A stretch of 64,000 nt of DNA from Acidiphilium sp. (GTDB lineage: Bacteria > Pseudomonadota > Alphaproteobacteria > Acetobacterales > Acetobacteraceae), in NCBI GenBank assembly GCA_028688905.1, contig JAQTXH010000001.1:248001-312000 (forward strand). Direction: 5' to 3'. Position numbers and translations under genes: made by a program. The notes under the pieces were generated by a model. The model did no database searches. It saw only the letters and a program-made list of their open reading frames with translations, and was not told where the DNA came from. Positions 40,857 through 56,656 of the stretch are shown piece by piece; position 1 is the stretch's first letter; every line of letters starts with the position of its first letter.

Positions 40857-40904
40857 GGCACCGGATATGACCCGTCAGCCAGCCGCTTCAACCGGCGGTG
40901 TGGC

Positions 40905-41483
40905 TCAAAATATGCTGAAAAGCCGGTCCAGCAGCCCTTTGGGTTGCGCGGTGCTTTGCTGCGGCGTGGAGCCGGTGGTCGCGGGCGCGCCGAGAGCGGC
41001 GTTTTCCTGCAACCGCCGCTGTTCGCCCGAGGCGTTGACGATGGTCTGGCCATTGTTCGCGCCGCCGAACGACATCAATGACGAAATAAATCCCGGGCTG
41101 CGGCTTTCAAGCTCGGCCTGATGATCGACGGTTGCCCTAATCCCGGCGGGCGGCGGCGGCCCGGCTTGCTGCAGCAATGCCTCCTGCCCTGGCCCCATGC
41201 TGGTGTCGGTTTTGGCGAGCGCGGTCTGTGGGGCCAGAACCTCCTCGGCCTGTTGCGAGGCGGAGACCTGCTGCGGCCGTGGTGCGCCGGGTTGCGGAGC
41301 CGGAAGCGTCAGGTCCGGCGGCATCGACAGTGGCGCTTCGCTCGCGACATCGTAGGCGTCGGGCGGGGTCACTTCGAGGCCAAAGGTTTTCGATGCATCG
41401 CTGCACCCGGCAAGCCCCAAGGTCGCGGCGAAAGCAATGACGGCGAGGGTCGCGGGTGCTGCCAGGCGGGATGATCGGATCAT
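40905..41483 (-). CDS. DUF3035 lipoprotein
   Basis: 192 residues. Signal peptide with lipobox LAGC, then the DUF3035 pattern [30 protein letters not shown], followed by a Pro/Gln-rich linker and the C-terminal [11 protein letters not shown]. The family is widespread beside lspA in alphaproteobacteria; its role is not established, though a cell-envelope function is likely. Its start overlaps the lspA stop by ATGA. Confidence 0.86.
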
Positions 41484-41989
41484 GGTGCCTCCTTATCGCC
41501 GCGCGTGGCACCGGGCAAGGGAGCGGGCGCATCGCGGCGAACCATATTCTCGATAATCAGGGTACCTACGCCGCAGACGATGGCGGCGTCGGCCAGGTTG
41601 AACACATACCAGTGATACGGCCCGATGTGGGCGTCGATGAAATCGACCACCGCGCCATAACGGATTCGCGACACCACATTCCCGATCGCGCCACCGATGA
41701 TCGTGCCGGTGGCGAGCGTGGTGGTCAGGTAGGCGGCCCGCCACAGCCAGATCGCCAGTGCGATAATCGCGACAATGGCGACCACGATCAGCAGTACCGT
41801 CGCGTTGTCGCCAGCCAGGATGCCGAAGGTGACGCCGTGGTTCCAGACCATTGCGAAATTGAGTACCGGCAGAATGCGCACAACGCCACGCTGTGGCAGG
41901 TCGAGGCCATAGAGCACCCAGTATTTCGACGCCTGATCGGCGGCGAGGACGAGGAGGGCGGTGAGCAGGCCGGCGAGGCGGCGGTTCAT
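41480..41989 (-). CDS. lspA: Lipoprotein signal peptidase II
   Basis: About 169 residues from ATG 41989, which overlaps the ileS stop (ATGA). Four membrane spans; the catalytic aspartates are in [20 protein letters not shown] and FNLADAAI. LspA cleaves the signal peptide from prolipoproteins, which would include the DUF3035 lipoprotein encoded next. The ileS-lspA pairing is widely conserved. Confidence 0.96.
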
Positions 41990-44874
41990 GTCACATACGC
42001 GCAGCAACGGCGGCACAGCGCCGGGTGGGCGTGGTTTTCCCCCACTTCAGGCAGCACCTGCCAGCAGCGGGCGCATTTGGTGCCGGGGGCGATCTCGATT
42101 TTCGGCAGGGCGCGCAACGGGGCGGCGGTGCCGGCCCCGGCTTCGTCAGGAGCGATCAGGGTTTCGGCGGCGGAGGTGATCAGCAATTCCGCCCAATCGA
42201 CGCTCTGCAACGCGATCGGCGCATCGACGGCGAGGGTGAGGGTGATTTTCGCTTGCAGCGACGAGGCGATGTCGCCGGTGCGGCGCGCATCTTCCAACTG
42301 GGTGTTGGCGAGTTTGCGCACCGCGCGGATTTCCGACCAGCCGGCATCGAGCGCCGGATCGCGCCAGTCGGCGGGCACGACCGGAAACTGTTCCAGATGC
42401 ACACACGCATCCTCGCCGAAGCGGGCGCGCCAGGCTTCGTCGGCGGTGAAAGGCAGGACCGGGGCGAGCCAGGTGGTGAGGCAGTGGTGGAGGATGTCGA
42501 GCAGGGTGCGGGCGGCGCGGCGGGTTTCGCTTTGTTTGAGTTGGCGACCCTCGGCGTCGAGCATCACGTCGCAATAGAGGGCGTCCTTGCGGATGTCGAA
42601 ATAGAAGGCGGAGAGGTCGTTGTTGCAGAATTGGTGGATCGCGGGATAGACGCCGGTCCAATCATGGGTTTCGACGGCGCGGCGGCGCAGGGCGTCGAGT
42701 TCGGCGAGTTTGTGGAGCATGTAGCGCTCCAGCTCGGGCATGGCGGCGGGTTCGAGGATTTCGGCTGCGGTGAACCCATCGAGGCTGCCGAGAATCCAGC
42801 GGAGCGTGTTGCGGATGCGGCGGTAGAGGTCGGCCTGTTGTTTGAGGATGTCGCGGCCGATGCGCAGATCGTTATGCACGTCGGAGTTCATCACCCAGAG
42901 GCGGAGGATGTCGGCCCCATAGAGGTCGATGACTTCCTGCGGGGCGGTGACGTTGCCGAGGGATTTCGACATTTTGCGGCCCTGCTCGTCGAGCACGAAA
43001 CCATCGGTGACGATGGCTTTGAAGGGCGCTGCGCCGCGGGTGCCGATGGCTTCGAGCAGCGAGGCCTGGAACCAGCCGCGATGCTGATCCGAGCCTTCGA
43101 GGTAGAGATCGGCCGGCCAGGGCATATTGCGGGCTTCGAGGACGAAGGCGTGGGTCGAGCCGCTTTCGAACCAGACGTCGACGATGTCGAACACCTGTTC
43201 GTAATCGTCGGGGTTGTAGTCGTTGCCGAGGAAATCGGCGGCGGGGCGGGCGTACCAGGCATCGGCCCCTTCGGTTTCGAACAGGGCGCGGGTGCGGGCG
43301 AAGACTGTGGGGTCGGTCAGAATGGATTTGTCGGTTTTGCTGACGAAGATGGCGATGGGCACGCCCCAGGCGCGCTGGCGGGAGATGCACCAGTCGGGGC
43401 GGGATTCGACCATCGAGCGGATGCGGTTGCGCCCGGCATCGGGGACGAAGCGGGTGGCGTCGAGGGCGGCGAGGGCCTTGTGCCGTATCGTGTCCGTATC
43501 TTGAACCCTATCCATATGGATAAACCAATTTGGTCGAGCCAAATAAATCAAAGGTGCTTTTGAACGCCATGAATGCGGATAAGAGTGAACAAACTCCTCG
43601 CGTTTAAGCAATGTGCCTGCGTTTTCAAGCGCACGACAAACTGGGTCAGCGGCCTTATAAACATGCATTCCAGCGAACAACGGAACATTTGAAGCATAAG
43701 TTCCGTCATCTTGGACAGAGTTTTCCGGGACTTCAATAGCGGATATTGTACAAAGGACGAAATCATCTGCACCGTGTGCAGGAGCCATATGTACAAAACC
43801 AGTCCCAGCTTCGGTAGTCACAAATACGTTGTCAAGTAAAACGGGGACGTCGAAATCATAACCATACCCGCGTAGTGGATGGGCGCATTTTGTATGCCCC
43901 CAGGAACCAAATTCGTGCCCCTTTAATTTTAGCGTAACAGTGTAATCTTCAATTCCAATCTTCTTTGAGAATTCAGAAACAAGATTCTCCGCAACAACAA
44001 GAGATTCTCCTGCGATTGCGCGGCTGCCATCCGTCGTCTTATTAACGGTGATAACGACATAATCAATATCAGCGCCCGCAGCGATCGCTCGGTTTCCAGG
44101 TATTGTCCAAGGTGTTGTAGTCCAAATTACGATGGAGCTTCCGTTCAAATCCGGTAGCCCCTCTTGCACGTTCGGAATAGCGCGAACTGTTTGAACAATA
44201 GGAAACCGCACCCAGATCGCGGTATCGGTCTTGTCCTGATATTCGACTTCGGCTTCGGCGAGGGCGGTTTTTTCGACGGGGCTCCACATGACAGGGCGGA
44301 GGCCGCGGTAGAGGGCACCGTTGGCCGCGAATTTGTGGATTTCGGCGGCGATGGCGGCTTCGGAGGGGAAATCCATGGTGGCGTAGCGCTGCGCCCAGTT
44401 GCCTTCGACGCCGAGGCGTTTGAATTCGGCGGCCTGGATGTCGAGCCATTTGGCGGCGTAGGCGCGGCATTCGGCGCGGAAATCGAGGACCGGCACGTCG
44501 TCCTTGTTGCGGCCTGCCTTGCGGTACTGCGATTCGACCATCCATTCGATCGGCAGGCCGTGGCAATCCCAGCCGGGGACGTAATTGGCATCGAACCCGG
44601 CCATCTGGCGGGCGCGGTTGATGACGTCCTTATGGATTTTGTTCAGGGCGTGGCCGATGTGGAGATTGCCGTTGGCGTAGGGTGGGCCGTCGTGCAGGAT
44701 GAAGGGGGTTTTTGCCGCCGAGTCAGCTCGCAACCTTGCGAACAACCCCATCGCCTGCCAGCGCGCCAGTGCTTCGGGTTCGCGTTGGGGCAAATCGCCG
44801 CGCATCGGAAACGGGGTGCGCGGCAGAAACACGGTGCCGCGATAGTCGCGTTCTGGGGTGAGGGTATCGTTCAT
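41986..44874 (-). CDS. ileS: Isoleucyl-tRNA synthetase (mosaic gene)
   Basis: 962 residues. Class I motifs: HIGH-type [16 protein letters not shown] near residue 65 and KMSKSLGN near residue 640. The CP1 editing domain has [10 protein letters not shown] near residue 255 and [16 protein letters not shown] near residue 360. The C-terminal zinc site is [13 protein letters not shown] with a second cysteine pair CRRC. Residues about 222-462 (bases 43490-44210) are encoded by DNA of about 45% G+C with different codon choice, against over 60% on both sides, while the reading frame stays intact. This suggests replacement of the editing domain by recombination. Confidence 0.96.
43490..44210 (-). other. 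Low-G+C block inside ileS (putative recombined segment)
   Basis: Hand counts on five 60-base lines between 43501 and 43800 give 37-48% G+C, with sharp edges near 43490 and 44210. It covers the whole CP1 editing domain in one open frame. Confidence 0.8.
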
Positions 44875-44911
44875 CGCAATCGCTCCGGCGGGAGAAAAAC
44901 AGGCGTCAGAT

Positions 44912-44933
44912 CCGGCCCTTAACCCAGGGCCGG
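44912..44933. promoter_or_regulatory. Stem-loop in ileS upstream region
   Basis: CCGGCCCT, loop TAACCC, AGGGCCGG: perfect 8-bp stem about 40 bp upstream of the ileS start, in the 296-bp divergent region before the MsrQ-like gene. It could be a leader hairpin; no T-box features (specifier loop, T-box sequence) were found. Confidence 0.35.
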
Positions 44934-45170
44934 GCGACTAATTCGCGGCGCTGACGCCGTGCGGATCTGTTGCGTGCTCATGAGCGCGTCTTATGCGAGG
45001 GTGGATGCCACCCGGTCAAGCGTCCCGCGATGGCCCGACCGGGGCGCAACCGGCCGCGGCACGGGCAGGCGTTAAAGATGTTTCATCGTCCGAACCGCCT
45101 GAAAGCCGGTATCGTCATCGGTATCATCCATAATTCCATAATATCGTCGCCCCATCCGAGTGAGTCCCGC

Positions 45171-46058
45171 ATGAGCACCATCATCCAACCCGCTGCTGCC
45201 ACCCAACCCTCTGCCCGGCCCCGCCGACCTGCGGTGTTCGGCGTTCCCTGGCGCACCCCGGCGGGGCGATTTTCGGGGCTGAAACTTGTCACTTTACTGT
45301 GCTGCATCGCCCCAACCCCCTTTATCGTCGGGCAATGGGCAACCGACAATCTCGGCGGCCGCCCGGTGCATCACGCCATGTTGGAAACCGGGTTCTGGGC
45401 AATCCGCTTCCTGATCCTCACCCTTGCCGTCACCCCGGCGCGGGCGTTGTTCGATTGGCCTCGCGTGACGATGCTGCGGCGTATGCTTGGCCTCGCCGCC
45501 GCGTTCTACACCTTCGCGCACATCATTCTCTATGCCGCCGACGAAAGCTTTGCCCTCGGCTTCGTGCTGAGCCAGATGCTTACGATATTCTATCTCATAC
45601 TCGGCACCATCGCGACTTTGGGGGTCATTGCTCTGTCGCTCACCTCGACCGATGCGGCGATGGCGCATCTGGGTAAGCGGTGGAAACTTCTGCATCGCTT
45701 GATCTATCTGATCACGGCCCTCTCGCTGTGGCATTTTTTTCTCACCCAGAAAATCGACGTCGGGCTGGCGATGGTGCCCGCCGGGCTGTTCGTCTGGCTG
45801 ATGCTGTGGCGGGGCGCGCCGCCGGGTTTCCGCCGCTCGCTGGGCGGGATCGGGCTGCTGGCGCTGGCCGCCGTGATGATCACCGCTCTGGGCGAGGCGG
45901 GGTGGTATGCCCTGAAATCCGGCATCAATCCGTGGCTGGTGCTCAAGGCCAATGTATCCACCATGCGGCCGACCGCCGCGATGTTCGTCGGTGTCGATCT
46001 CGCGCTCCTGATCCTGCTGGTCGCGGCGCGGCGGGTGCTGAAGCGGCGGGCCGCCTGA
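45171..46058 (+). CDS. msrQ: MsrQ-like haem-binding ferric-reductase-type membrane protein
   Basis: About 295 residues from ATG 45171; the open frame begins at 44970 but the upstream part has no homology-like content. The central part is the ferric-reductase-like/MsrQ domain: LILTLAVTPARALFDWP, LRRMLGLAAAFYTFAHIILYAADE, LLHRLIYLITALSLWHFFL, with haem-ligand histidines in the last two. It is longer than typical MsrQ (about 200 residues) because of extra C-terminal spans. MsrQ normally feeds electrons from quinol or flavin to the periplasmic methionine sulfoxide reductase MsrP; no msrP is visible here. Instead, 47 bp downstream begins a complex I-like gene group in the same direction. Confidence 0.82.
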   Translation: MSTIIQPAAATQPSARPRRPAVFGVPWRTPAGRFSGLKLVTLLCCIAPTPFIVGQWATDNLGGRPVHHAMLETGFWAIRFLILTLAVTPARALFDWPRVTMLRRMLGLAAAFYTFAHIILYAADESFALGFVLSQMLTIFYLILGTIATLGVIALSLTSTDAAMAHLGKRWKLLHRLIYLITALSLWHFFLTQKIDVGLAMVPAGLFVWLMLWRGAPPGFRRSLGGIGLLALAAVMITALGEAGWYALKSGINPWLVLKANVSTMRPTAAMFVGVDLALLILLVAARRVLKRRAA

Positions 46059-46105
46059 TCGTCGCCTGATGGCCGAATCGGGTCTTCCCCTGCTATAGGA
46101 GGAGC

Positions 46106-47413
46106 ATGGCCCGAACCTCCAAGCAACGCCGGCTGATGGGACCATGGTCGATGCAGGCGCTGATCCCGCTTGCCGCCGGCGTGGCGCTGGCCTTGGCGCT
46201 CGGCATGGCGGTTCTGGCGGTGCGGGGCGATGTCGTTGCACGGGTGGACATCCCCGGTTTTGGCCTTGGCGGCACCGTCGGGTTCGGGATCGATCCGGCG
46301 GGTGCCGCCCTCCTGGCATCCTTGCTGCTTGCCGCCGCCGCGACAATTCTGACCTCATCGGCGCACCGGGCGGCCTTGTTCAGCCTGATCGTCGCGACGG
46401 TCCTGGCGGTATTGGCGCGCGAGGGGTTCACCGCCGGGTTCTGGGCGCTGGCGGCGCTGCTGATCGCGGTGCGGGGACACACCGAGGCGTTCGCCCTCGC
46501 CGCCCTGCCGATGGTCGCGATCGTTCTGGCGCGAACCCAGGCACCTGCCGTGCTCGATCCCGCCTTCGCGGTTGGCGGCGGAATGGCGATGCTGGCGGCC
46601 GGGGTCTGGGCGGCGCGCACCCTTAAACTCGGGCAACTGGCGCGCGCGGTGGCGCTGGGATTCGCTGGGTTGGGCTTGCTCGCCGCCGGGATGGGGGCGG
46701 TATCGGCGGCGCTACTGGCGGTGATGGCGAACGCCACCATCGCCCCGTTGCTTGGCATCGCCGCCACTACCCTCGATGAAGCGACCGGCACAACCTCGCT
46801 CGACTGGCTGGGCGGGCTGGCGCGCGGTATGCCGCGATTTGCCCTGTTGACGCTGGCAGGACTGGCATTTGCCGCAATCCTGCCGCCAGGGCCAGGGTTT
46901 GCGGCGTTCAGCGCGGTGTGGCAGGCCGCGATCGCGGCCCGGTCCGGCGCGGTGATCGGGGTTCTCGCGCTGTGGTTTGGGTTGATGGGATTTGCCGGCT
47001 TGCGCGGCTTCGGGCTGGCGTGTCTCGGCCGGCCGCGCAGCCTGCGTGCCGCCGCCGCCGAGGACGCCGCCCGGCCGGTGCTGATCGCGCTCGCCCTGCT
47101 GGCGGCGGGCGGGGCGGTGTTGGGACTCGCCGATCCGGCGATGCTGGCGCTGGCGGCGGTTTTGGCGATGCTGGCGGCTGGGCTTCGTTGGCTCCTGACG
47201 CGGACCGGGCCGCTCGATGTCGCGGGGTTCGAGGGCGGCTTCGCGCGACCGCCGGCGTGGTTGCCGTTCGGCGATCCGGCGACCCAGATCACCGCGACCG
47301 GCTTTGCCGCGCCGCTGCGTCCCCCGTCGCGGCTGGTGGCGGCACTGACAGGGCTGCGATGCGCGGTGCGCTGGCTCGCCAGCGCGTTTCGTCCCCCCAC
47401 GTGTCGCCCATGA
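46106..47413 (+). CDS. HyfB/NuoL-like antiporter subunit, shortened and degenerate
   Basis: 435 residues, highly hydrophobic with about a dozen spans; start ATG 46106 with AGGAGG 7 bases upstream. The best match is the HyfB-type proton-conducting subunit of group 4 hydrogenase: DEATGTTSLDWLGGLARGMPRFALLTLAGLAFAAILPPGPGFAAF corresponds to HyfB's GTRDLDxLGGLxRxMP...GLPPxxGF region (shown here in parts). Typical HyfB is about 650 residues. The helix that normally reads H-x-x-N-H-A-L-F-K is here ANATIAPLLGI, without the ion-pathway Lys/His. So the antiporter chemistry appears lost or altered. It overlaps the next gene by ATGA. Confidence 0.72.
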   Translation: MARTSKQRRLMGPWSMQALIPLAAGVALALALGMAVLAVRGDVVARVDIPGFGLGGTVGFGIDPAGAALLASLLLAAAATILTSSAHRAALFSLIVATVLAVLAREGFTAGFWALAALLIAVRGHTEAFALAALPMVAIVLARTQAPAVLDPAFAVGGGMAMLAAGVWAARTLKLGQLARAVALGFAGLGLLAAGMGAVSAALLAVMANATIAPLLGIAATTLDEATGTTSLDWLGGLARGMPRFALLTLAGLAFAAILPPGPGFAAFSAVWQAAIAARSGAVIGVLALWFGLMGFAGLRGFGLACLGRPRSLRAAAAEDAARPVLIALALLAAGGAVLGLADPAMLALAAVLAMLAAGLRWLLTRTGPLDVAGFEGGFARPPAWLPFGDPATQITATGFAAPLRPPSRLVAALTGLRCAVRWLASAFRPPTCRP

Positions 47414-48771
47414 TCATCCTGACCCGGCTGATCGCGACGATCATCGATGTAACCGCGCTGCTGGCGGTGTCGCTGGCGCTGGCGATTGTGGATCAGACGC
47501 TTGCCGCCGTGCGCGCCGGTCTGGCCCCGCCGCCGTGGTGGCAGCCGTGGGATGATCTGGTAAAATTGGGCCGCAAACGCCGCCTGCGCCCGGCCTTCGC
47601 CTCGCCGCTGTACAGCGCGTGGCCGGTTGTCGCGCTGGCGGCGAGCGGGGCGGCGGCGTTGATTGTTCCCGGATTTGCCTTCGGGTTGATCTCGGCACCC
47701 CTCGCCACCGTGCCGGTGCTGATTGGCCTGCTGGCGCTCGCCGCAACCGCGCGGCTGGCGGCGATGCTGGAATCGGGCGAGGGCGCGCGAGGTCTGGCGG
47801 CATCGCGCGCGGCGGCGCGGTTGCTGCTGGGGGCTGCGGTGTGGCTGATCGCGTTGGGGGTTCTGGCGGTGCGGGCGGGCAGCCTGGCGCTCAGCGGGAT
47901 CGGCGGCGGCATTGCGGGGATGGCCGGCGGCGAACCCCTGGTGCTGCTGGCGGGGCTGGCGGCGACACTGACGCTACGGTGTTTCGCTGTGCCCGATCCC
48001 GCCGACTACGCCGGACCGGAGCGGGCGATGTTCCAGGCCGAGGCGGTGGTGCGCCGCGTGGTGATGCTGGCGGCGCTGATCGATCTGATCGCGCCACTGC
48101 CGATGGCCGATGCCCGGCTGATTTTTACCTGGCCGCTGGGTTTGTTGGCCTGGATCATTAAAATCATGTTGCTCGCGGGGGTGACGGCGCTGATTGCGCC
48201 GCGCCGTTACGCGATGTGGCTTGGCGTGGCCTGTGCCATTGCGGCGGCAGCGCTGCTGGTGATGCAGGAAGCCGATGCACCGGGACTCCTCGTGGCGAGC
48301 GGCGGTGCAATCGGTGTGGTGGGGCTGGTCTGGCTGATCCGGCGTGGCCCGGTGCTGGAGGTTGCGAGCCTGGTGCAGTTGGGCGTCGCGGTGATCGGAT
48401 TGGGGATCGGCGCGACGCAGGGGGCGTTTCTGATCCTGGCGATGGTGGTGCTGGCGCGGGGAGCGGCGCAGCTGGCGGGCCGTGTGCCTGGGCTGATTGC
48501 GGCACTATGCGCGGTCGCGATGGCCGGCTTGCCGCCGTTCGGCGGATTTGCTGGTGATTTTGCGGTGCTGCGCGCCGGATTTGCCCTGGATCCCTGGCTC
48601 GGCGGTTTCATGCTGTTGGCCATGACATTGACGGCGATCACCCTGATTTCCCGCCTGCCGGCGACGCTGCCGCGCCCCAAAGCCGAACCCCGGGTGCTGC
48701 TCGCCGGAATATGCCTCGCAATCGCGCTGGCGCTGGGTGTGGCGCCCTGGCTGATCGCGGGTCTTTCATGA
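47410..48771 (+). CDS. Fused HyfC(NuoH)/HyfE/HyfF-like membrane subunit
   Basis: 453 residues from ATG 47410, coupled to the previous gene. Residues 1-250 look like HyfC/NuoH: APPPWWQPWDDLVKLGRKRR matches the conserved GPxxLQPxxDLxKL loop, and PDPADYAGPERAMFQAEAVV sits where NuoH/HyfC has its acidic DxPxxxxELxxxxxxE loop. Residues about 250-340 look like a short HyfE (NuoK-like) subunit. Residues 345-453 match the C-terminal end of a HyfF/NuoN-like antiporter (AGLPPFGGFAGDFAVL). These are three separate genes in known Hyf operons, so this is a condensed fusion. The assignment of the middle part is the least certain. Confidence 0.65.
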   Translation: MIILTRLIATIIDVTALLAVSLALAIVDQTLAAVRAGLAPPPWWQPWDDLVKLGRKRRLRPAFASPLYSAWPVVALAASGAAALIVPGFAFGLISAPLATVPVLIGLLALAATARLAAMLESGEGARGLAASRAAARLLLGAAVWLIALGVLAVRAGSLALSGIGGGIAGMAGGEPLVLLAGLAATLTLRCFAVPDPADYAGPERAMFQAEAVVRRVVMLAALIDLIAPLPMADARLIFTWPLGLLAWIIKIMLLAGVTALIAPRRYAMWLGVACAIAAAALLVMQEADAPGLLVASGGAIGVVGLVWLIRRGPVLEVASLVQLGVAVIGLGIGATQGAFLILAMVVLARGAAQLAGRVPGLIAALCAVAMAGLPPFGGFAGDFAVLRAGFALDPWLGGFMLLAMTLTAITLISRLPATLPRPKAEPRVLLAGICLAIALALGVAPWLIAGLS

Positions 48772-50069
48772 ATTTCGACTTGAACCCGGATCTGGCCGCC
48801 GCTCTCGACGCCGCACCACAGCTGGCAGCGGCCCCCGCCGCGTTGCAGATGCTGAACGCCGAAGCCTGGGCGATCCTGACACGTGGTGACGCCGCCTTGG
48901 GGTTTTGCGGCCTTTGGGTGGCGGGAACGCGCGCTTATACTCTATTTGAGTATAAGTCGGCCCTGCTGTTCGTCGCGACGGATCTGGTGGCGAACGCTTA
49001 CCCCTCGCTCGCGGCGGGATTTCCGCTGGCGGCATGGTTCGAGCGTCTGGCACACGACCTGACCGGTGCGGTGGCGACAGGTGCCACGGATTGCCGCCCG
49101 GCGATTGCCCAAGGTGCTGCGGGGACCGATGCTGCGTGGCCGCGTTTTCTCGAAACGCGGTGCGAGGGGGGCTATCAGATTGGCGAAGGCCCGGCCTCAG
49201 GGGTGATTGCGGCACCAATGCACCAGCGATTCAGCCTTGATGGTGGCCGGATACTGCGGCTCGAACACCGGCTGGGCTATGCTCATCGCGGCGTGACCGG
49301 GTTGATGGGCGGCAAGTCGCCCCGGGTAGCGGCCCGGTTTGCCGCGCGGATCACCGGCGATGCCACGGTGGCGCACGCGGTCGCGTTCGCCCGTGCCGCC
49401 GAGGCAGCGTGCGGCCTGTCGGCACCAGCCCGGGCCGAGGCGCTGCGCGGCGCGATGCTGGCAATCGAACGGATCACCGGCGATCTGGCGTCCCTGGCGG
49501 CAACCGCCGGAGTGGCGGGTCATGCGCGACTGGCGGCGATGCTGGGGCGGGCGCGTGAGCAGATTGCAACGGCGCTGGGCGAGACGTTCGGCCACCGGCT
49601 GATGATGGACATCGTGGTTCCCGGCGGGTTGGCGCTCGATTTCCGACCGGAGGGGATGCCGGCGCTGCGGCGCGGCCTCGATCAGGCACGGCACGCGGTG
49701 CGCGGGATCGGGCGAGAGCGGGTCCGGCATGACCTGGGTGCCGCCGTGGCCCTGACGTTGGCACGGGCGCGCGCCGTGCTGGCGCTCGTCGCCGAGGTGC
49801 CGGGCGCGATTGAAGCCGCGCCGGCGGGGATTATCGCGCAGGCGTTGCCGGCGGTGAGTGGCATGGGGCTGGGGGCAGCGGTGAGCGCGCGTGGGATGGT
49901 GCATCACTGGCTCGATGTCGAGGGCGGCCAGATCCGCGACAGTTTCGCGATCGACCCGTCGGCGCGGCTGTTGCCCGCGCTGGAGGCGGCGGCGGTGGGG
50001 CTGGATTTCCACGACGCGGCGGTGCTGGCGGCGTGCTACGGGTTATCGGTGGGGGCGATTGATGGATGA
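48768..50069 (+). CDS. HyfG/NuoCD-like large subunit lacking Ni-binding cysteines
   Basis: 433 residues from ATG 48768 (ATGA overlap). Residues 1-120 resemble the NuoC part (SLAAGFPLAAWFERLAHDLTG). From residue 160 the NuoD/hydrogenase-large pattern appears: LRLEHRLGYAHRGVTGLMGGKSP, and FGHRLMMDIVVPGG. At residues 194-203, R-I-T-G-D-A-T-V-A-H aligns without gaps to the hydrogenase R-I-C-G-x-C-x-x-x-H motif, with Thr196 and Ala199 in place of both cysteines. The C-terminal DPCxxC motif is also absent (the end reads CYGLSVGAIDG). It therefore cannot bind NiFe like a hydrogenase and may work like the quinone-site subunit of complex I or something new. Confidence 0.78.
   Translation: MNFDLNPDLAAALDAAPQLAAAPAALQMLNAEAWAILTRGDAALGFCGLWVAGTRAYTLFEYKSALLFVATDLVANAYPSLAAGFPLAAWFERLAHDLTGAVATGATDCRPAIAQGAAGTDAAWPRFLETRCEGGYQIGEGPASGVIAAPMHQRFSLDGGRILRLEHRLGYAHRGVTGLMGGKSPRVAARFAARITGDATVAHAVAFARAAEAACGLSAPARAEALRGAMLAIERITGDLASLAATAGVAGHARLAAMLGRAREQIATALGETFGHRLMMDIVVPGGLALDFRPEGMPALRRGLDQARHAVRGIGRERVRHDLGAAVALTLARARAVLALVAEVPGAIEAAPAGIIAQALPAVSGMGLGAAVSARGMVHHWLDVEGGQIRDSFAIDPSARLLPALEAAAVGLDFHDAAVLAACYGLSVGAIDG
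48934..48956. promoter_or_regulatory. Inverted repeat TTATACTC-N5-GAGTATAA inside the large-subunit gene
   Basis: CTTATACTC, spacer TATTT, GAGTATAAG: perfect 9-bp arms within coding sequence (YTLFEYKS). Same 8-bp arms and spacer length as the palindrome at 6864-6890. A role is not shown; could be chance, a protein-binding site or a hairpin. Confidence 0.3.
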
Positions 50070-50072
50070 CGC

Positions 50073-50594
50073 GTGATGGATGAGGCGGCGACGAGCCTGC
50101 TGGCGGCACGCCTGACCGAGGCCGGCACTGTGCTGCTGGGGCGCAGCTTGGCGGTGCGGCATGTCGATGCCGGCAGTTGTGGCGGCTGCGAAATCTCGCT
50201 CGCCGGGGCGCGGGTGCTGCGCGACGGACTGACGCACCACGGCGTCGTTCTGGTCGATGACCCGCGCGCAGCCGATGTGTTGTTGATCACCGGGGTTGCC
50301 ACCCACGCCCTCGCCGAGGCGGTGCAGCGCACCCTGGCGGCGATGGCACCGCCGCGCTTTGTGGTCGCGGTGGGGGATTGCGCGGTCGATGGCGGGGTGT
50401 TCAAGGGCGCGCCGACCGTGCTCGGAGGGGCGGAACAGGTGGTTGCGGTGGATTTGTTGATCGCCGGCTGCCCGCCGTCGCCGCGCCGGATCATCGCGGG
50501 GCTGGTGGCATTGCTGGAAGCCAATACGGCCCCGGCGCGGCCTCGCCAACCACGGCGGCCAAAGGGGCAAAAGCGAATTGAACCGCGTGCCTGA
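50073..50594 (+). CDS. HyfI/NuoB-like iron-sulfur subunit
   Basis: 172-173 residues (GTG at 50073 or ATG at 50076). Four cysteines sit as in the NuoB/[NiFe] small-subunit family: SCGGCE (Cys35, Cys38 counting from ATG), VGDCAVDGG (Cys102) and IAGCPPSP (Cys132), enough for the proximal/N2 [4Fe-4S] cluster. The C-terminus is a basic tail ([13 protein letters not shown]). It should pair with the large subunit encoded just upstream, so an electron-transfer centre is kept although the Ni site is lost. The last bases overlap the rnhB start. Confidence 0.88.
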
Positions 50595-51198
50595 TTTCAT
50601 TCATGAGCGGCGGGTCGGCGGCATTGTCGCCGGAGTCGACGAGGTTGGTCGCGGTCCGCTGGCCGGCCCGGTGTTGGCGGCGGCGGTGATATTGCCGTTC
50701 GATCTTGATATGAATATCATAGTTCTGATCGATGATTCTAAACGATTATCAGCGCAGCAGCGTTGTGCCGCGTTAACCGCGTTGACCATGGCGGGTGTGA
50801 CGATCGCGCTCGGAGCGGCCTCGGTGGATGAGATTGTCCGGCTGAATATATTGCAGGCGAGCCTGCTGGCGATGCGCCGCGCGGTGGTGCGGTTGCCGCT
50901 GGTGCCGGACCATGTGCTGGTCGATGGCAATATCGCGCCGGGTCTGCCGATGCCGTGTTCAGCCATTATCGGCGGGGATGGGATTTCGTTGTCGATCGCG
51001 GCAGCCTCGATCGCCGCGAAAGTGGCGCGGGACGGACTGATGACGCGGCTGGACGGCAGGCATCCCGGCTACGGTTGGGCGCGCAACGCCGGATACGGAA
51101 CCAGACTGCATCGTGACGCAATCGGCACGCTCGGCGCAACACCGCATCACCGGCCCGGGTTTGGCCCGCTATTGCGTGATCTGGCGGAAGCCAGGTGA
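50578..51198 (+). CDS. rnhB: Ribonuclease HII
   Basis: 206 residues. [25 protein letters not shown] carries the [10 protein letters not shown] catalytic motif (Asp-Glu); the further acidic residues lie in VLVDGN and [14 protein letters not shown]. RNase HII removes ribonucleotides from DNA. The start is TTG at 50578 overlapping the 3' end of the Fe-S subunit gene by 17 bp; GTG at 50587 is an alternative. Nothing links it functionally to the preceding complex. Confidence 0.94.
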
Positions 51199-51201
51199 TA
51201 A

Positions 51202-51489
51202 TCAGGCGTATTTCTGTTCGGGATGGCGCAAATACCAAAGCCGTTCATGGGCCGCCACGAGGCTCTCGATACTCTTGCGGCGATTGGTGTCGACGTTAGC
51301 GGTGCGGCGCATCAGCATCCGTTCCAGGAGGATCAGCAACTGCTCGGCAATCTCGTAATCGTTCTGATCGCAGGCATGGTGGAACGCAATCAGGATTTTA
51401 TCGGACAACCGCCGACTATACCGCGTCTGCGATTTATCTGGCTTTCCGGCATCTTCAATTAACTGATCGATGGTATCCTCATTTATCAC
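51202..51489 (-). CDS. Conserved-looking small hypothetical protein
   Basis: 95 residues from GTG at 51489, no family recognised. It is charged and helical, with AFHHACDQNDYEIAEQLLILLERMLMRRT resembling a TPR-like helix pair, then ESLVAAHERLWYLRHPEQ. No signal peptide or membrane span. It is convergent with rnhB (3 bp between stops) and has a lower G+C than its neighbours. Function is unknown. Confidence 0.7.
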   Translation of the reverse strand: MINEDTIDQLIEDAGKPDKSQTRYSRRLSDKILIAFHHACDQNDYEIAEQLLILLERMLMRRTANVDTNRRKSIESLVAAHERLWYLRHPEQKYA

Positions 51490-51749
51490 GGCTGTTATCC
51501 CGGTCCAAAGATGAACGAAACGTCATCTTAGCGGTTTCCCGACATTTGTCCATCCTGAAATTCGTTGAAAACAACAAAATACACCATCTGTGTGGTTACC
51601 ATAGTAAGTAAACCGCAGCTTCCGCCCTAATCTTTATTTTTGTACAACCTATCGCAATTTACTTTAAATCATATTCTTAATTTTGGCAAGCCCCTTCTCA
51701 GACCTACCCTTAAATTCCCAATTTTGTGAAAACCCAGGATGCTATGAGA

Positions 51750-52802
51750 TTATGCTGACGTGCTCAGGGGCAGAGTCGCGCCGGTAACTCCGAAATCTGA
51801 AAAAGCGTCTTCCCACGATCCGGTCGTGGAGGCTCTGCTGTATTCGGTGGCGCGGTTTTCGAAAAAATTGGCATGCTCAACCGCGTTGAGCATCTCATCG
51901 AGCCAGGGCAGCGGGTTTTTCTCGACATGGAACAACGTGTTCAAGCCAAGCTGTTGCAACCGACGGTCGGCGATGAAACGGATGTAGCGCTTGACCTCGG
52001 CGGCCGTCAGTCCCTCGATCGCGCCGAACTCGAAGGCAAGGTCGATGAAAGCGTCTTCGTGGTCGACGATGGTGGCACACGAGAGGTAAAGCTCGCGGCG
52101 GAGTTCCTCGGTCCAGACATCAGGGTTTTCCGAAATGAAGGTGCGGAACAGCCGGATGATCGAACTACAGTGCAGGCTCTCGTCGCGCACCGACCACGAA
52201 ATGATCTGACCCATGCCCTTCATTTTGTTGAAGCGCGGGAAATTCAGCAGAATCGCGAACGAGGCGAAAAGTTGCAACCCTTCGGTAAACGCACCGAACG
52301 CCGCCAACGTCTTGGCGATCTCGTGCTTATTTTCCACGCTGAAACCGTGCATATAGTCGTATTTGTCCTTCATTTCCTTGTATTTCATGAAGGCGGAATA
52401 TTCGAGTTCGGGCATGCCCACGGTATCGAGCAGATGTGAATAGGCGGCGATATGCACCGTTTCGATGTTGGAGAATGCCGATAACATCATCAGCACCTCG
52501 GTCGGTTTGAACACCTGACTGTAGTGCTTCATATAGCAGTTGTTCACCTCGACATCCGCCTGGGTGAAAAACCGGAAAATCTGGGTGAGCAAATTGCGCT
52601 CGCCGGCGGTGAGATTCTTGTGCCAGTCCTTGACGTCATCGGCCATCGGCACCTCCTCGGGCAGCCAATGCACGCGCTGCTGGGTGAGCCACGCCTCGTA
52701 GGCCCAGGGGTAGCGGAACGGCTTATACACCGGGTTTTCGGTGAGGAGGTCGAACTTGATGGGGAGGATGATGGGCGAGGGCGGGGTGATGATGGCGGAC
52801 AT
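51750..52802 (-). CDS. nrdB: Ribonucleoside-diphosphate reductase, small (beta) subunit
   Basis: 350 residues. Di-iron ligands and radical tyrosine are in place: FTQADVEVNN (Asp), NIETVHIAAYSHLL (Glu, His, and Tyr at the radical position of E-x2-H-x3-Y), EGLQLFASF (Glu), and VRDESLHC (Glu, His). It supplies the tyrosyl radical for class Ia reduction of NDPs. The ATG is preceded by AGGA. The partner nrdA is about 4 kb away on the same strand, upstream in transcription order, not adjacent. Confidence 0.97.
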   Translation of the reverse strand: MSAIITPPSPIILPIKFDLLTENPVYKPFRYPWAYEAWLTQQRVHWLPEEVPMADDVKDWHKNLTAGERNLLTQIFRFFTQADVEVNNCYMKHYSQVFKPTEVLMMLSAFSNIETVHIAAYSHLLDTVGMPELEYSAFMKYKEMKDKYDYMHGFSVENKHEIAKTLAAFGAFTEGLQLFASFAILLNFPRFNKMKGMGQIISWSVRDESLHCSSIIRLFRTFISENPDVWTEELRRELYLSCATIVDHEDAFIDLAFEFGAIEGLTAAEVKRYIRFIADRRLQQLGLNTLFHVEKNPLPWLDEMLNAVEHANFFENRATEYSRASTTGSWEDAFSDFGVTGATLPLSTSA

Positions 52803-53112
52803 GGTTTTGATCCTTTAGGGCAACGCGAAGGATAGGCGAGGACTCTGCCCTCGACCCGCCGGGGCCTTAGGCCCCGGACCCCACTGGTTTAGGGAGGCGA
52901 ATCTGATGACGTCTTATGGACTGGCACGATGGATTCAGCAACCGCGAAAATGGCCGACGACCGATCTCGGTTACCATATATGTTGCTCCGGGCATGATTG
53001 GCTACAAGATGTGGTGGTATCCGCCAGATATGTCAGTTGGATCGGTCCGGGAGATTGACAGCGGTGCCCGCGGCTCGGAGAGTCGGCGCAGACAGGACCA
53101 ACAGGATACACG
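52803..53112. other. Intergenic region holding a repeat family B copy
   Basis: Just upstream of nrdB. It contains repeat B copy 1 (52835-52890). A 50-codon open frame from 52906 has no recognisable content. The nrdB promoter presumably lies here, but no NrdR-like box was seen. Confidence 0.5.
52835..52890 (+). repeat. Dispersed G+C-rich repeat family B, copy 1
   Basis: Two adjacent hairpins: GCGAGG-ACTCTG-CCCTCG-type, then CCGGGGCC-TTA-GGCCCCGG, followed by ACCCCACTGGTTT. Near-identical to 54176-54231 and, inverted, to 56731-56784. Confidence 0.88.
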
Positions 53113-53385
53113 ATGACCGACGAGCCGCAGCGCCACGCCGAAATTCTGATGCAGACCCTCAAAGACAACGGCAAGCCCGACCACGCCGCGCGCTTCGCCG
53201 ATGTGCTCTCGGGCAATCTGGTCGGCCGCGCGCTGCTCGAAGCGTTGCGGGATGTGAGCGATACGGTCATGGCCGGGGTCGAGGCGCTGGACCCCGCGGC
53301 CGTGGTGGCGCTGGAGGATTTCCGGCTCTCGGTCGACCGGCACCTGACGACCGACCCGGACGGCACACCGCCCGCCACGCCCTGA
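53113..53385 (+). CDS. Small hypothetical protein
   Basis: 90 residues with a plausible ribosome-binding site (AGGA) 8-9 bases before ATG 53113. Sequence is soluble and helical (EALRDVSDTVMAGVEALDPAAVVALEDFRLSVDRH in parts). No family recognised. Its TGA abuts the TGA of the convergent thioredoxin-like gene in the palindrome TGATCA. Confidence 0.65.
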   Translation: MTDEPQRHAEILMQTLKDNGKPDHAARFADVLSGNLVGRALLEALRDVSDTVMAGVEALDPAAVVALEDFRLSVDRHLTTDPDGTPPATP

Positions 53386-54099
53386 TCAGGATTTGTGAGG
53401 CACCGAAGCCGCGCTCTGCGCGGTCTGTTTCTCCTGCGCTTCGGCCCGATCGACCGTTCTGACCAGATCGCCGTAGCTGATCGACCCGATGATGCGCTGG
53501 TGGCCGATATACCAGCTCGGCACGTATTTCAAGCCGAGCGCGTGGCCACGGGCCAGATTGGTTTTCAGGCGGGCGGCGACGATGGGGTCGTTCAGGGCGG
53601 TTTTCAGGGTCGGCCAATCGATGCCGGCTTTTTGCGCGTCGGTTTTGAGGATGGCCATGGTGGGTTTACGCTTCTGGCGCATCAGGATGTGGCGCAGCGC
53701 ATGGTATTTGTGCTGAAGGGCGGCGACGAACAGGGCTTTGGTGCCGAGAACGCTTGGCCTGCCGAGGATGGGGTAATCAACCGGGACGTAGCGGATATCG
53801 GGGTCGGACTGCATCAGCCGGTTGAACCGCAGATTCATGCGCCGGCAGGGCGGGCAGCGGATATCGTAGAAATCGACGATGGTAAGACGGGCCGACTTGT
53901 CCCCGAACACTGGATCATCCGGCTGAACCAGACTGGCCGCGGTGAAAGCAGTCTGGATGACCGGCGGATTGGCATCACCGGGCGGTTTGCGCGTGAAATG
54001 ATGCAGCGTAACGGCAACCACAGCAGCCAGAGCAATGCCACCAACGGCAAAAAGAGCGGGACGATGATTCATGAGGCTCCGTCGGGTGGGTTGAGGCAT
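53386..54099 (-). CDS. DsbA-like thiol oxidoreductase, exported
   Basis: About 237 residues from ATG 54099; ATG 54072 is an alternative and the frame opens at 54180. The N-terminus reads PTRRSLMNHRP then a hydrophobic run (ALFAVGGIALAAVVAV), a Tat-like or Sec signal. The thioredoxin-fold active site is FYDIRCPPCRRMN (CPPC). The C-terminal pattern ALGLKYVPSWYIG contains the cis-Pro (VPSW). Members catalyse disulfide exchange in the periplasm, DsbA/DsbG-like. It is one of the genes between nrdB and nrdA. Confidence 0.85.
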   Translation of the reverse strand: MPQPTRRSLMNHRPALFAVGGIALAAVVAVTLHHFTRKPPGDANPPVIQTAFTAASLVQPDDPVFGDKSARLTIVDFYDIRCPPCRRMNLRFNRLMQSDPDIRYVPVDYPILGRPSVLGTKALFVAALQHKYHALRHILMRQKRKPTMAILKTDAQKAGIDWPTLKTALNDPIVAARLKTNLARGHALGLKYVPSWYIGHQRIIGSISYGDLVRTVDRAEAQEKQTAQSAASVPHKS

Positions 54100-54175
54100 G
54101 GAGTCTAGACCATTCCGGGGGCGTGGGGCCAGAGTTGTTTGAGGGTTAGGCAAGGCAAGGCAAGGCAAAGGGTAA

Positions 54176-54231
54176 GGCAAGGGCTCTGCCCTTGACCCGC
54201 CGGGGCCTTAGGCCCCGGACCCCATTGGTTT
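54176..54231 (+). repeat. Dispersed G+C-rich repeat family B, copy 2
   Basis: GGCAAGGGCTCTGCCCTTGACCC-type first hairpin (shown in part), then the same CCGGGGCC-TTA-GGCCCCGG hairpin and ACCCCATTGGTTT. It is preceded at 54147-54166 by four AGGCA pentamers. Confidence 0.88.
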
Positions 54232-54256
54232 GGCTTTGGAGTTCGTCGCGCTTTTG

Positions 54257-55003
54257 TTATTGAGTGAGTGCAATATCGCTGAATAGCGTCAGGACCGTTT
54301 TATCGGACTCGGTGGAGCGGATGACGTCATCCACCCATCTCACGATATCCGGAAAAGCCGAGGTGCCGCAGATCTGACGACATGCCTCGTTGAGATCCAT
54401 CGATGAACGCAAAAAGGTGACGCCCGGACCGAGCATCGCCCAGTGGGGACCGCTACGTCCGTAAGTCATACCGATGCTGCCGGGGTTGATGACCATTCTG
54501 CCACGCACGAGGCGGGCGAATGGCATGTGAGTATGGCCGCAGACGATGGTTTCGATTTCGGGGGCGATAGCGGTGAAGACTTCGTCCCAGCGCGGATAGG
54601 GGGAGTCGACCAGGATGATGTCGTCGTCGGCGCGAGGAGTTGCGTGACAGAACAGGGTTGGGCCGAGGCCTTCTATTGTCAGGTGCAGCGTCAAAGGCAG
54701 GGTTTCGAGGACGGCGATATTTTGATCCGTGATGGTTTGCGCGGCGAATTCCGCGATGGCGTCTGGCATTTCGGTGCGGCGGCCGCGCCGGTATTCGATC
54801 AGTTCGCGATCGGCGTTGCCAATGAGCCATTCCACGCGGTCACCGAGGGCGAGCAGGCGGTGCATGACCTCGTTCGGTTGCGGGCCGGCGGCGATGTCGC
54901 CCAGGGCGATGATGCGGTCGGCGGTGCGGATTGCGGGGTCCGTGAGGACGGCATCGAGGGCGGGGAGGACGCCGTGGATGTCGGCGAGGACGGCGATTTT
55001 CAT
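54257..55003 (-). CDS. Metallophosphoesterase
   Basis: 248 residues of the calcineurin-like/YfcE-type superfamily. Metal ligands: LADIHG (Asp, His), IALGDIAAG (Asp), IGNADRE (Asn, in GNxD rather than the usual GNHD), CHATPR (His), and CGHTHMPF (His, His). Such small enzymes hydrolyse cyclic nucleotides or phosphodiesters; substrate is unknown. The replacement of the GNHD His by Ala is common in YfcE-like relatives. ATG 55003. Confidence 0.9.
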   Translation of the reverse strand: MKIAVLADIHGVLPALDAVLTDPAIRTADRIIALGDIAAGPQPNEVMHRLLALGDRVEWLIGNADRELIEYRRGRRTEMPDAIAEFAAQTITDQNIAVLETLPLTLHLTIEGLGPTLFCHATPRADDDIILVDSPYPRWDEVFTAIAPEIETIVCGHTHMPFARLVRGRMVINPGSIGMTYGRSGPHWAMLGPGVTFLRSSMDLNEACRQICGTSAFPDIVRWVDDVIRSTESDKTVLTLFSDIALTQ

Positions 55004-55219
55004 GAGGGGGTGCGTTGGGTTCTGGTTGGAGGCAGTGGTGTTAATGATTGAAGGACGGTGAGCTTCGCTAGGGCTCTTCCCATACGTACTTTAGTCGGAA
55101 AGGAACTTAGCGAGTTGAATTTTATCGACAATTTCGCCCGTGTCGTATAGATCGCGGTGAAGAGATAGGTCTCAAGTAGGACCCACCCTACAATTTGCTA
55201 CCTCTTGCTATTTCGTAAC

Positions 55220-56656
55220 CTAAAAACTTTGTTTTATATTACATATCTTGCCGTTTTCAGCAGAATAGTATGCTTGGAAAAACTCAAAGTCTTGTCGACC
55301 AGTTTCGACACATTTCCGCCTTATGATATCGACGATACGTTTCTTTTCTAGGACTGGCGTCTTTATGCCGAAAATTATCCCCGTTAAATCAGAAAATTGA
55401 TATGTTAATTTTCTGTCGCTAGGATCTTCGAAGCCGCCTAGGGACGAGTACAAGACCAATCGATATTCGTTTTCGTGTTGCCAATCGCTAAGTTTCGTTG
55501 CTAAGATTGACTGAAATCTCTTCCAGTATTCGAGTCTCCCCTCCTCGATATTTCTGAAGGTAGAATCGGAACAGGAACTTCTTTTCCCGTCTTGGCCGTT
55601 GTACCAATCGGCGTTGAGAGCCATGACTGAAATGCGACCGATGGACCTGAAAAAATCGATCTCAGCGAATCGATCAACGTAGTTTATCTTTAAAAAGTCA
55701 TGGAACACTTCGCCGTAATGTTTTATTGTTTCTTGCCCGTTCGAACCCCATCCTGTTATCCTGTTCATCTTGAGACCAGGCTGACCGTTTGATAGCTTAT
55801 TAGAAAATTTTAGACATGCGCCTTTATGTCCGTCGCCGTAGTTTCCCCACATTGCGGCGTGATTTGGGTTTGATACAAAGCATGCGGCGTACCATTCGCA
55901 AAACAATATCTTTTCCAGACTTTCAACATATTCGGCTGGAAAATCAGCAATCTCGGTGTGCCAAATCTGATCACGAACATTCGTCGCCGTAAAGTATCGA
56001 GACGAAACAAATGCCCGATTTATATGGTCGGCGGCCTCGAATAACAAATTCATCGATTTTCGCTCTTGGTCACCGTGGCATCTGATGCTCTCCTGTATAA
56101 CTCTGAACAGCCCGTTTATTGTCTGGCCTCCAATTAACGTATTTGGATTAAATTTATCTACAGAAGCTGTAACGAGTCCTTTCGTAGCGAATACAGAAAA
56201 TATGCAGTTCGTCGCGGCACCATGCATCCCTCTTAAGTAAAATTTTATTTCTTCCCGGCGCACTGGGTGTTCGCTGATTGATAATAGTGAGGGCATTTTA
56301 TCTATTTCACTATCAAAAAACAGTTTGCAGATCTCGTCAAAAGTATTTTTAAATTCTACAGAAGGATGATTTGTTGAAGATGAGAATATAATATTATTTG
56401 CATAATCCGGATGATATGCTTCTCCCATCAGCAATATTAACATGACTTTTCTGGTAAAACACAGTAAATAGTGGCGAATTAAGTTACGCCATATAATAGC
56501 ATCGCCGCTCCAGAAGATATCTTTGAAACCCTCCATCGGGTCATTTAGTTCGTTCGGCGACGCGAAGTAAATTTCTTGTTTTTCCAGTTCTTGCCAACCG
56601 TCAAGTAATGCGTGAGTAGAGCGAAAGCGATAAAAGTGTTCGCTATCATTTATCAT
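55220..56656 (-). CDS. DUF2971 domain protein, A+T-rich, probably horizontally acquired
   Basis: 478 residues. DUF2971 features: HFYRFRSTHALLDGW, then IYFASPNELNDPMEG near residue 30, and CFVSNPNHAAMWGNYGDGHKGACLKF near residue 265, with FSDLTGIIFG near the end. No enzymatic function is established for the family. The gene is about 35-40% G+C (one hand-counted line gives 35%), unlike every neighbour, and ATG 56656 lacks a strong ribosome-binding site. It lies between two inverted copies of repeat B together with the metallophosphoesterase gene. Such isolated low-G+C genes are often accessory or defence-related, but that is inference. Confidence 0.82.
   Translation of the reverse strand: MINDSEHFYRFRSTHALLDGWQELEKQEIYFASPNELNDPMEGFKDIFWSGDAIIWRNLIRHYLLCFTRKVMLILLMGEAYHPDYANNIIFSSSTNHPSVEFKNTFDEICKLFFDSEIDKMPSLLSISEHPVRREEIKFYLRGMHGAATNCIFSVFATKGLVTASVDKFNPNTLIGGQTINGLFRVIQESIRCHGDQERKSMNLLFEAADHINRAFVSSRYFTATNVRDQIWHTEIADFPAEYVESLEKILFCEWYAACFVSNPNHAAMWGNYGDGHKGACLKFSNKLSNGQPGLKMNRITGWGSNGQETIKHYGEVFHDFLKINYVDRFAEIDFFRSIGRISVMALNADWYNGQDGKRSSCSDSTFRNIEEGRLEYWKRFQSILATKLSDWQHENEYRLVLYSSLGGFEDPSDRKLTYQFSDLTGIIFGIKTPVLEKKRIVDIIRRKCVETGRQDFEFFQAYYSAENGKICNIKQSF

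Follow-up and report, generated by a model that had tools for sequence, protein, structure and literature searches.

Whether redox chemistry can be separated from proton pumping is a long-standing question in the complex I superfamily. Complex I itself has 13–14 subunits with an NADH module, and the superfamily also includes the energy-converting hydrogenase-related (Ehr) complexes, for which the 2013 work of Marreiros et al. is said to be the usual reference. As defined in PMC6349859, Ehr complexes combine a HyfG/HyfI-type module without NiFe ligands with HyfC and antiporter-like membrane subunits, and are suspected of coupling redox chemistry to charge translocation via the antiporter-like subunits. 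The locus described here, from Acidiphilium sp., shares this composition, but it has four genes in place of six, and of its shortened antiporter-like subunits hardly any key residue is left. Another well-described relative is the Escherichia coli formate hydrogenlyase, whose membrane arm (HycC, HycD; PDB 7z0s/7z0t) is the best structural match of our gene 2 and among the best for gene 1, although that enzyme is a working [NiFe] hydrogenase with a formate dehydrogenase. We found no four-gene form in the open-licence literature, which does not establish its absence from print.

Four consecutive reading frames on the + strand, at 46106–50594 of the analysed window (a stretch of 64,000 nucleotides), make up the locus. 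Gene 1 (46106..47413, 435 aa) encodes a HyfB/HycC/NuoL-like antiporter-like subunit, and gene 2 (47410..48771, 453 aa) a HyfC/HycD/NuoH-like domain (residues ~1–292) fused to a short HyfF remnant (~293–453). Gene 3 (48768..50069, 433 aa) encodes a HyfG/HycE/NuoC-NuoD-like large subunit without NiFe ligands, and gene 4 (50076..50594, 172 aa, or 173 aa from an alternative GTG start at 50073) a HyfI/MbhJ/NuoB-like [4Fe-4S] subunit. The original prediction had read gene 2 as a HyfC/E/F fusion and placed ATGA overlaps at the first three junctions. The HyfC and HyfF parts are indeed there but no HyfE part was recognised; similarly, the overlaps exist at junctions 1–2 and 2–3 but not at the end of gene 3, where the ATGA opens a frame of just five codons and gene 4 starts 3–6 nt past the gene 3 stop. 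Neither an NADH module nor a set of 13–14 subunits is found at the locus, which has four subunits only. By their sequences, the four genes belong with the Ehr complexes within the complex I superfamily, in a reduced form. Our preferred reading, to which we give a probability of about 0.5, is that of a reduced Ehr-type complex which would have lost ion pumping, kept its Fe-S redox site and now carry out uncoupled electron transfer.

All 13 genomes of the genus carry this condensed type, although G001 has just a fragment of it (gene 4, rnhB and part of gene 3, where a contig ends); G001 was left out of the residue tables, and membrane-arm residues were readable in the 12 other genomes. It is accompanied in the genus by a second, full-type paralogue. 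In the genome studied here this is a six-gene Hyf/Ehr operon (C11; L096:5419-12550) with the same subunit families, no NiFe ligands and the four HyfI cysteines, but its HyfB, HyfC and HyfF have intact pump residues and its C, E and F genes are separate. The Acidocella-type Ehr (e.g. L024, Acidocella aromatica DSM 27026) forms a sister clade with common HyfB C-terminal motifs; it differs in having six genes, a HyfB of ~554 aa and, except at locus L022, intact pump residues. A further group, here called 'odd', is found in Rhodopila, Acidisphaera and MAGs (L047, L052, L072, L080 and others). It has lost the same HyfB residues and kept the HyfI cysteines, but its HyfB is 529–724 aa long, the HyfG segment discussed below is mostly kept and more of the HyfC Glu residues remain.

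The catalytic pair of HyfG/NuoD-like and HyfI/NuoB-like subunits is present. Gene 3 matches Pfam NiFeSe_Hases (1e-9), HycE in the PDB (3.5e-14) and the Mbh alpha subunit (7.6e-12), the Pfam profile placing it within the NiFe hydrogenase family, as had been proposed. Aligned to HycE, the site of the hydrogenase RxCGxC ligand motif reads RITGDATVAH (49347..49376, + strand). Cys occurs at neither position of the first NiFe ligand pair in the 101 HyfG rows, including that of the window, and none of these rows has a CxxC in its last 80 aa. The two NiFe-binding CxxC pairs of group 4 [NiFe] hydrogenases are therefore lacking, and a [NiFe] hydrogenase identity was rejected for want of these ligands. 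The missing NiFe site, which the original prediction had singled out, is ordinary for the Ehr family. An internal segment conserved among relatives is also deleted from gene 3, and E226, N232, H233, D236 and G238 (paralogue numbering) are mostly replaced in condensed HyfG; these losses suggest that the catalytic pocket may be eroding too. Gene 4 matches Oxidored_q6 (1.7e-24) and MbhJ (5.6e-26), and the strength of the former match, together with the recurrence of the arrangement across the genus, argues against a chance operon. Its cysteines follow the pattern CxxC...C...C and are, as predicted, exactly four (Cys35, 38, 102 and 132), all at conserved positions; all 12 condensed rows and all 10 'odd' rows have them. 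The NuoB of complex I carries an adjacent cysteine pair, unlike the CxxC spacing of Cys35 and Cys38.

The membrane arm has fared differently. In structure predictions gene 1 resembles HycC/NuoL and gene 2 HycD/NuoH, which bears out the proposed families of the membrane proteins: a HyfC/NuoH-like subunit is present, and antiporter-like subunits are represented by gene 1, by its fold, and by HyfF as a remnant only. According to PMC7613608, the key pumping or coupling residues are the TM5 Glu, the TM7, TM8 and TM12 Lys (or His/Glu) and those of the E-channel. In gene 1, an internal deletion spans the TM5-TM7 segment and the C-terminus is shortened. The HyfB TM5 Glu, TM7 Lys, TM8 Lys and TM12 Glu are missing from all 12 condensed sequences; at the same sites, 60 rows that are neither condensed, 'odd' nor L022 have E in 55, K in 56, K in 58 and E in 60, the remainder being gaps. 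The predicted membrane-segment cores of condensed HyfB contain zero Lys (12/12). Gene 1 also carries the motif LGRPRSLRAAAAED (47024..47065, + strand), conserved in the condensed sequences aligned, and PPAWLPFGDPATQITATGFA (47249..47308, + strand), which in the alignment resembles the Acidocella-type HyfB C-terminus. Five Glu positions of HyfC hold E in 55, 61, 61, 61 and 61 of 61 other rows, and only one E and three D in total across the 12 condensed rows. HyfF is mostly gone in the 12 readable genus genomes, and its TM7 Lys, present in 72 of 73 other rows, is missing from 11 of 11 condensed ones. The condensed type thus lacks nearly all residues of ion translocation, a suspected function of Ehr complexes and not a formal part of their definition, and it is quite likely to be non-pumping. 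Gene 2 does retain Arg350 (48457..48459, + strand), aligned with the HyfF TM8 Lys, and Asp383 (48556..48558, + strand), aligned with the TM12 Glu; both are the same in 11 of 11 condensed sequences. With this pair, some charge function may persist in the membrane, and one could imagine that ions are still moved by another route, for instance through Arg350 and Asp383 with water chains invisible to conservation. We regard this as improbable given the Lys-free HyfB cores, the deleted TM5-TM7 segment and the nearly vanished HyfC Glu chain, and a salt bridge would account equally well for the pair.

In the non-pumping redox complex that we prefer, HyfG and HyfI would together bind a single [4Fe-4S] cluster facing the cytoplasm, where a soluble donor or acceptor would dock. 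Through the cluster, electrons would be exchanged in either direction with a membrane acceptor at the HyfG/HyfI/HyfC interface, a quinone being the likeliest candidate, and the membrane proteins would serve as anchor and cavity and not as a pump. For an acidophile living with a very large pH gradient, dropping the pump might allow a reaction with little driving force to proceed. Residue loss need not yield an uncoupled active enzyme, however, since complex I mutants engineered in the membrane subunit Nqo13/ND4 are described in PMC9802314 as strictly coupled even when catalysis is impaired.

The surroundings of the operon offer few hints of a partner. In agreement with the original prediction, no Pfam family of ferredoxin, maturation or dehydrogenase genes was found among the ten neighbours at 36861–56656, nor did the operon or msrQ contain ferredoxin-like or maturation genes; a plasmid search gave no match. 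The original prediction had also envisaged a quinone- or haem-linked redox complex, of which the reduced complex stands and the haem link is not favoured. Upstream lies a gene for an MsrQ-like haem membrane protein (44970..46058, + strand; NCBIfam MsrQ 1.2e-32; 113 bits, below the cut-off of 130). Queried with a trimmed part of its ORF, it was linked to the condensed operon in 7 of 13 genomes; G001 and G009 had no match, and in G007 and G012 MsrQ adjoins an Oxidored_molyb gene elsewhere. A haem partnership was set aside on the basis of this partial linkage and the Oxidored_molyb association, and the MsrQ neighbour is probably incidental and not part of the complex. Downstream follows rnhB (RNase HII; 50578..51198, + strand; Pfam RNase_HII 5e-37), a neighbour and not a subunit, with in-frame starts at TTG 50578 or GTG 50587, so that its start overlaps the gene 4 stop. 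When the neighbours of 61 chosen loci were clustered, with the complex's own genes and the frames antisense to them set aside, no gene family recurred across lineages in a manner suggestive of a partner, and rnhB recurred beside the complex in the condensed group only. These data bear on the idea of a sensor, in which a single membrane-anchored [4Fe-4S] cluster would respond to oxygen, iron or the quinone pool and signal via a partner. One cluster site is kept and no catalytic partner is recognisable, but rnhB apart, no gene recurs at the condensed operon in a partner-like fashion, and four large proteins would be a costly device; we find a sensor hard to credit.

Estimates of dN/dS indicate purifying selection on all four genes. 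Values were 0.09–0.19 for HyfI and 0.17–0.40 for the other three condensed genes, with 0.05–0.20 for the full paralogue and 0.17–0.25 for rnhB as references; gene 2, and in part gene 1, scored higher than the full paralogue. Domain loss, gene fusion and an rnhB gene following the operon in all 13 genomes could be taken to mean that the operon is a decaying remnant, which persists solely because translation or transcription of rnhB runs through it. Divergence from genome to genome points the same way, the condensed copy exceeding the full paralogue in 35 of 36 genome pairs for HyfG, whose identity is lowered by some over-long ORFs, and in 28 of 36 for HyfI. Such decay is nevertheless very doubtful: the condensed-type matches to genes 2 and 3 show no internal stop codons genus-wide, the cysteines are invariant, the small genome G007 (2.4 Mb, 94% complete) still has the condensed type, and decay alone is disfavoured by dN/dS. 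Somewhat more plausible, if still unlikely, is a structural role, in which redox chemistry is gone and the proteins stabilise or help to assemble another membrane complex. Such a role has been proposed in PMC10715153 for the bc1 complex of Acidocella and Acidiphilium, and the erosion of both the membrane arm and the HyfG pocket would fit it. The deranged bc1 of Acidocellaceae likewise persists in the same organisms after losing conserved functional residues, but as far as that source describes it, it has lost metal ligands, whereas the condensed complex shows the opposite pattern, with its ion path lost and the four Fe-S cysteines invariant (12/12). In each of the three pairs tested, moreover, dN/dS was lower for HyfI than for any of the other three genes, which favours a retained redox site. 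Besides the reported bc1 case, the condensed complex is a further respiratory-type complex retained by acidophilic Acetobacteraceae despite lost conserved functional residues.

Within one bacterial family there seems to be a gradation between full pumps and none at all and, as the cell also contains an intact paralogue that can serve as control, this makes the separation of redox chemistry from pumping directly testable. We tentatively suggest that machines of the complex I superfamily have naturally and repeatedly been stripped of the proton pump while the Fe-S redox site stayed under selection, the Acidiphilium form possibly being the most reduced in these searches, working without pumping in acidophiles, for which pumping would be a burden given the pH gradient already present. 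Relatives were sampled as the best 80 of at least 571 loci and a further best 30 among loci from 118 of 299 genomes; the latter query, an 'odd' HyfB at E 1e-30, did not catch the condensed type, and neither set, comprising best rows only, gives prevalence. All trees were quick ones without bootstraps, with program warnings of long branches and odd letter make-up, and rows with short HyfB C-termini were left out. In a first HyfG+HyfI tree of 92 rows, the condensed and the pump-less 'odd' clades came together (22 rows; starred value of 99), which would imply a single loss common to both. This grouping is probably due to the long-branch row L075. With L075 left out, the condensed clade joins the Acidocella type in the HyfG+HyfI tree (95, starred) and in the concatenated tree (100, starred), where L158/L159 and L160/L161 are one genome each; it does so as well in the HyfB C-terminus tree (98, starred), in which L075 was kept, as it was in the first tree and the residue tables. 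In AU tests, a single condensed and 'odd' clade gave p = 0.032 (HyfB), 0.264 (HyfG+HyfI) and 0.053 (concatenated). Grouping condensed with Acidocella on HyfB gave p = 0.059, probably due to the ungrouped Acidocella row L030 lying inside the set. Independent loss of pump residues in the condensed and 'odd' lineages is favoured, and probable, on these comparisons. There seem to have been several separate losses among the Acetobacteraceae relatives: the best HyfB tree, again without L075 (113 rows, 106 different, some genomes having two identifiers), needs five changes of the TM7 state, three of them forced by starred branches. In the trees, the full paralogue of this Acidiphilium genome groups with Xanthobacter, apart from the Acetobacteraceae lineages.

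The missing NiFe site of the four-gene complex is ordinary for its family, since none of 101 HyfG proteins has a cysteine at the first ligand pair or a CxxC within its last 80 residues (0/101 in both cases) and these ligand-free loci match the definition of the energy-converting hydrogenase-related (Ehr) complexes in PMC6349859. At least 571 loci related to gene 3 came out of a scan of genome contigs, and the 80 best were taken further. All six genes (HyfB, C, E, F, G and I) could be recognised at 44 of the 80. At 38 of these complete loci every gap between the genes is below 150 nt, and at the other 6 there is a single gap of 156-531 nt; the remaining 36 of the best 80 are broken by contig ends or too diverged. 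The complex is a variant of the known Ehr group, and its chief interest lies in the recurrent loss of the proton-pump residues. We found no account of the four-gene form in the open-licence papers searched, nor is it treated in the accessible parts of PMC7677001, which deals with the genus Acidiphilium, or of PMC12361115, whose subject is complex I variants.

All four genes lie on the forward strand: a HyfB-like gene 1 (46106-47413), gene 2 joining HyfC to a HyfF remnant (47410-48771), a HyfG-like gene 3 (48768-50069) and a HyfI-like gene 4 (50076-50594). ATGA overlaps join genes 1-2 and 2-3, as originally predicted; the third such junction of that prediction is wrong, because gene 4 begins 3-6 nt past gene 3. 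Downstream, the start of rnhB (50578-51198) overlaps the stop of gene 4, and rnhB lies 3' of the complex in 13/13 genus genomes (the window and 12 loci). Translational coupling of this housekeeping gene to the complex is possible. Ten neighbouring proteins between 36861 and 56656 belong to mismatch repair, transport, signal peptidase, tRNA synthetase, RNase HII, ribonucleotide reductase, thioredoxin-like, phosphoesterase and two DUF families; the predicted lack of ferredoxin, maturation and dehydrogenase genes nearby was borne out among these ten. An MsrQ-like gene (44970-46058) stands without MsrP beside it in the window, and msrQ adjoins the operon in 7/13 genus genomes. As its homologue neighbours an Oxidored_molyb gene in genomes G007 and G012, the window copy is probably an ordinary MsrQ moved beside the operon.

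A condensed-type relative of gene 3 is present in all 13 available genus genomes, although G001 has only 65 residues of it where a contig ends, and gene 2 was found in all but G001 (12/13). Acidiphilium rubrum ATCC 35905 (NZ_FTNE01000003.1) has the same operon, and in genome G006 the operon has five genes, HyfC (294 aa) and the E/F-like gene (341 aa) being still unfused. A second HyfG-like match, of about 40-42% identity, occurs in 13/13 genus genomes; nine of these loci were retrieved, with six genes each. HyfB of the G006 paralogue (L169:2034-3945) is split, matching as two neighbouring stretches that leave out about 22 residues; the gene may be broken or the assembly at fault.

PMC7613608 names as key residues of antiporter-like subunits the TM5 Glu, TM7 Lys, TM8 Lys/His and TM12 Lys/Glu, together with the E-channel glutamates. 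Among 60 HyfB proteins that belong neither to the condensed type, nor to the longer pump-less 'odd' loci, nor to locus L022, these are kept as E (55), K (56), K (58) and E (60), the remainder being gaps, and all four are absent from 12/12 condensed proteins. There the TM5 and TM7 segment is missing, TM8 holds A, V, T, G or I and TM12 holds F, M or L; no lysine lies in any predicted membrane-segment core (12/12). Little can be read from the loss of a further TM8-region His, whose column holds Cys in 19 of the 60 as it is. HyfF, which keeps these residues in 69, 72, 72 and 72 of 73 corresponding proteins, has lost the TM5 Glu and TM7 Lys in the condensed type (n = 11), with Arg in the TM8 place and Asp in the TM12 place in 11/11. 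Five HyfC positions are Glu in 55, 61, 61, 61 and 61 of 61 corresponding proteins; over all cells the 12 condensed proteins hold one Glu and three Asp there, and two HyfC lysines are mostly retained (10/12 each).

The loss recurs within Acetobacteraceae. The 11 odd loci (Rhodopila, Acidisphaera S103 and MAGs) lack the same HyfB residues in longer proteins; L045 among them still has a TM5 Glu in both of its antiporter-like subunits, one in each, and one HyfC Glu position is kept in 8/11. Five of the 11 carry a squalene/phytoene synthase-like gene (labelled by eye; e.g. L072:10338-11234). Within the Acidocella clade, the TM12 Glu is the only one of these HyfB residues left in L022 (TM5 G, TM7 M, TM8 R), a separate loss in a locus with all six genes. 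A family-wide search matched 118 of 299 genomes. Among the best 30 loci, TM7 Lys is gone in L183 and L202 and other residues in L191 and L195, four further HyfB proteins in which the loss is partial or complete; L178, L179, L189 and L194 belong with the odd set, three of them identical in the compared region to loci already counted (L178 to L047, L189 to L043, L194 to L067), and the remaining 22 have lost none of the residues wherever their sequences cover them. The best HyfB tree needs five TM7-state changes, three of them forced by starred branches, a count that does not separate gain from loss; its outer lineages retain TM7 Lys. Save in one earlier tree with a very long branch, the sister of the condensed clade is the Acidocella type, a six-gene Ehr with pump residues kept except in L022.

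The four HyfI cysteines are kept in 12/12 condensed and 10/10 odd proteins (71, 71, 71 and 70 of 71 others). Condensed HyfG retains GP, the R before the old ligand motif, VAH, RLMMD and PGG (12/12), but the 12 lack nearly all conserved columns of an inner stretch that corresponds to about residues 308-369 of the paralogue. In three close pairs, dN/dS is 0.19-0.31 for gene 1, 0.28-0.40 for gene 2, 0.17-0.27 for gene 3 and 0.09-0.19 for gene 4, beside 0.17-0.25 for rnhB and 0.05-0.20 for the six-gene paralogue (two pairs). These ratios indicate that all four genes are under purifying selection, strongest on the Fe-S subunit. However, divergence is greater in the condensed type than in the paralogue in 35/36 genome pairs for HyfG, where some ORFs are over-long, and in 28/36 for HyfI, which counts against this reading. 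With its Fe-S site kept and its ion path nearly gone, the complex would transfer electrons at the membrane without coupling to ion pumping, perhaps as a quinone oxidoreductase supplied by a soluble carrier. The main rival is a structural role like the one that PMC10715153 proposes for the deranged bc1 complex found in these organisms; the invariant HyfI cysteines argue against it. A possible rationale is that a large pre-existing pH gradient in these acidophiles would work against pumping, and that losing the pump would free the reaction.

The window's genome holds seven Oxidored_q6 genes and a complete six-gene Hyf/Ehr operon (L096:5419-12550), which groups with Xanthobacter and was possibly acquired from outside the family. 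Besides the two Ehr types, loci L097, L098, L099, L100 and L101 hold what look, from labels given by eye, like several clusters of complex I type and a pair of NiFe hydrogenases. Several genus members carry a third, distant Ehr type (L173, L175, L176, L177) with HyfB pump residues kept; its gene order is C-E-F-G-I-B in L173 and L175, and E has no match in L176. The HyfB of L043, a contig labelled Nitrosovibrio, is identical in the compared region to that of G296, a genome of the window's family; this MAG title is probably mistaken, and the name Asaia bogorensis may likewise be wrong for several of the loci that bear it.
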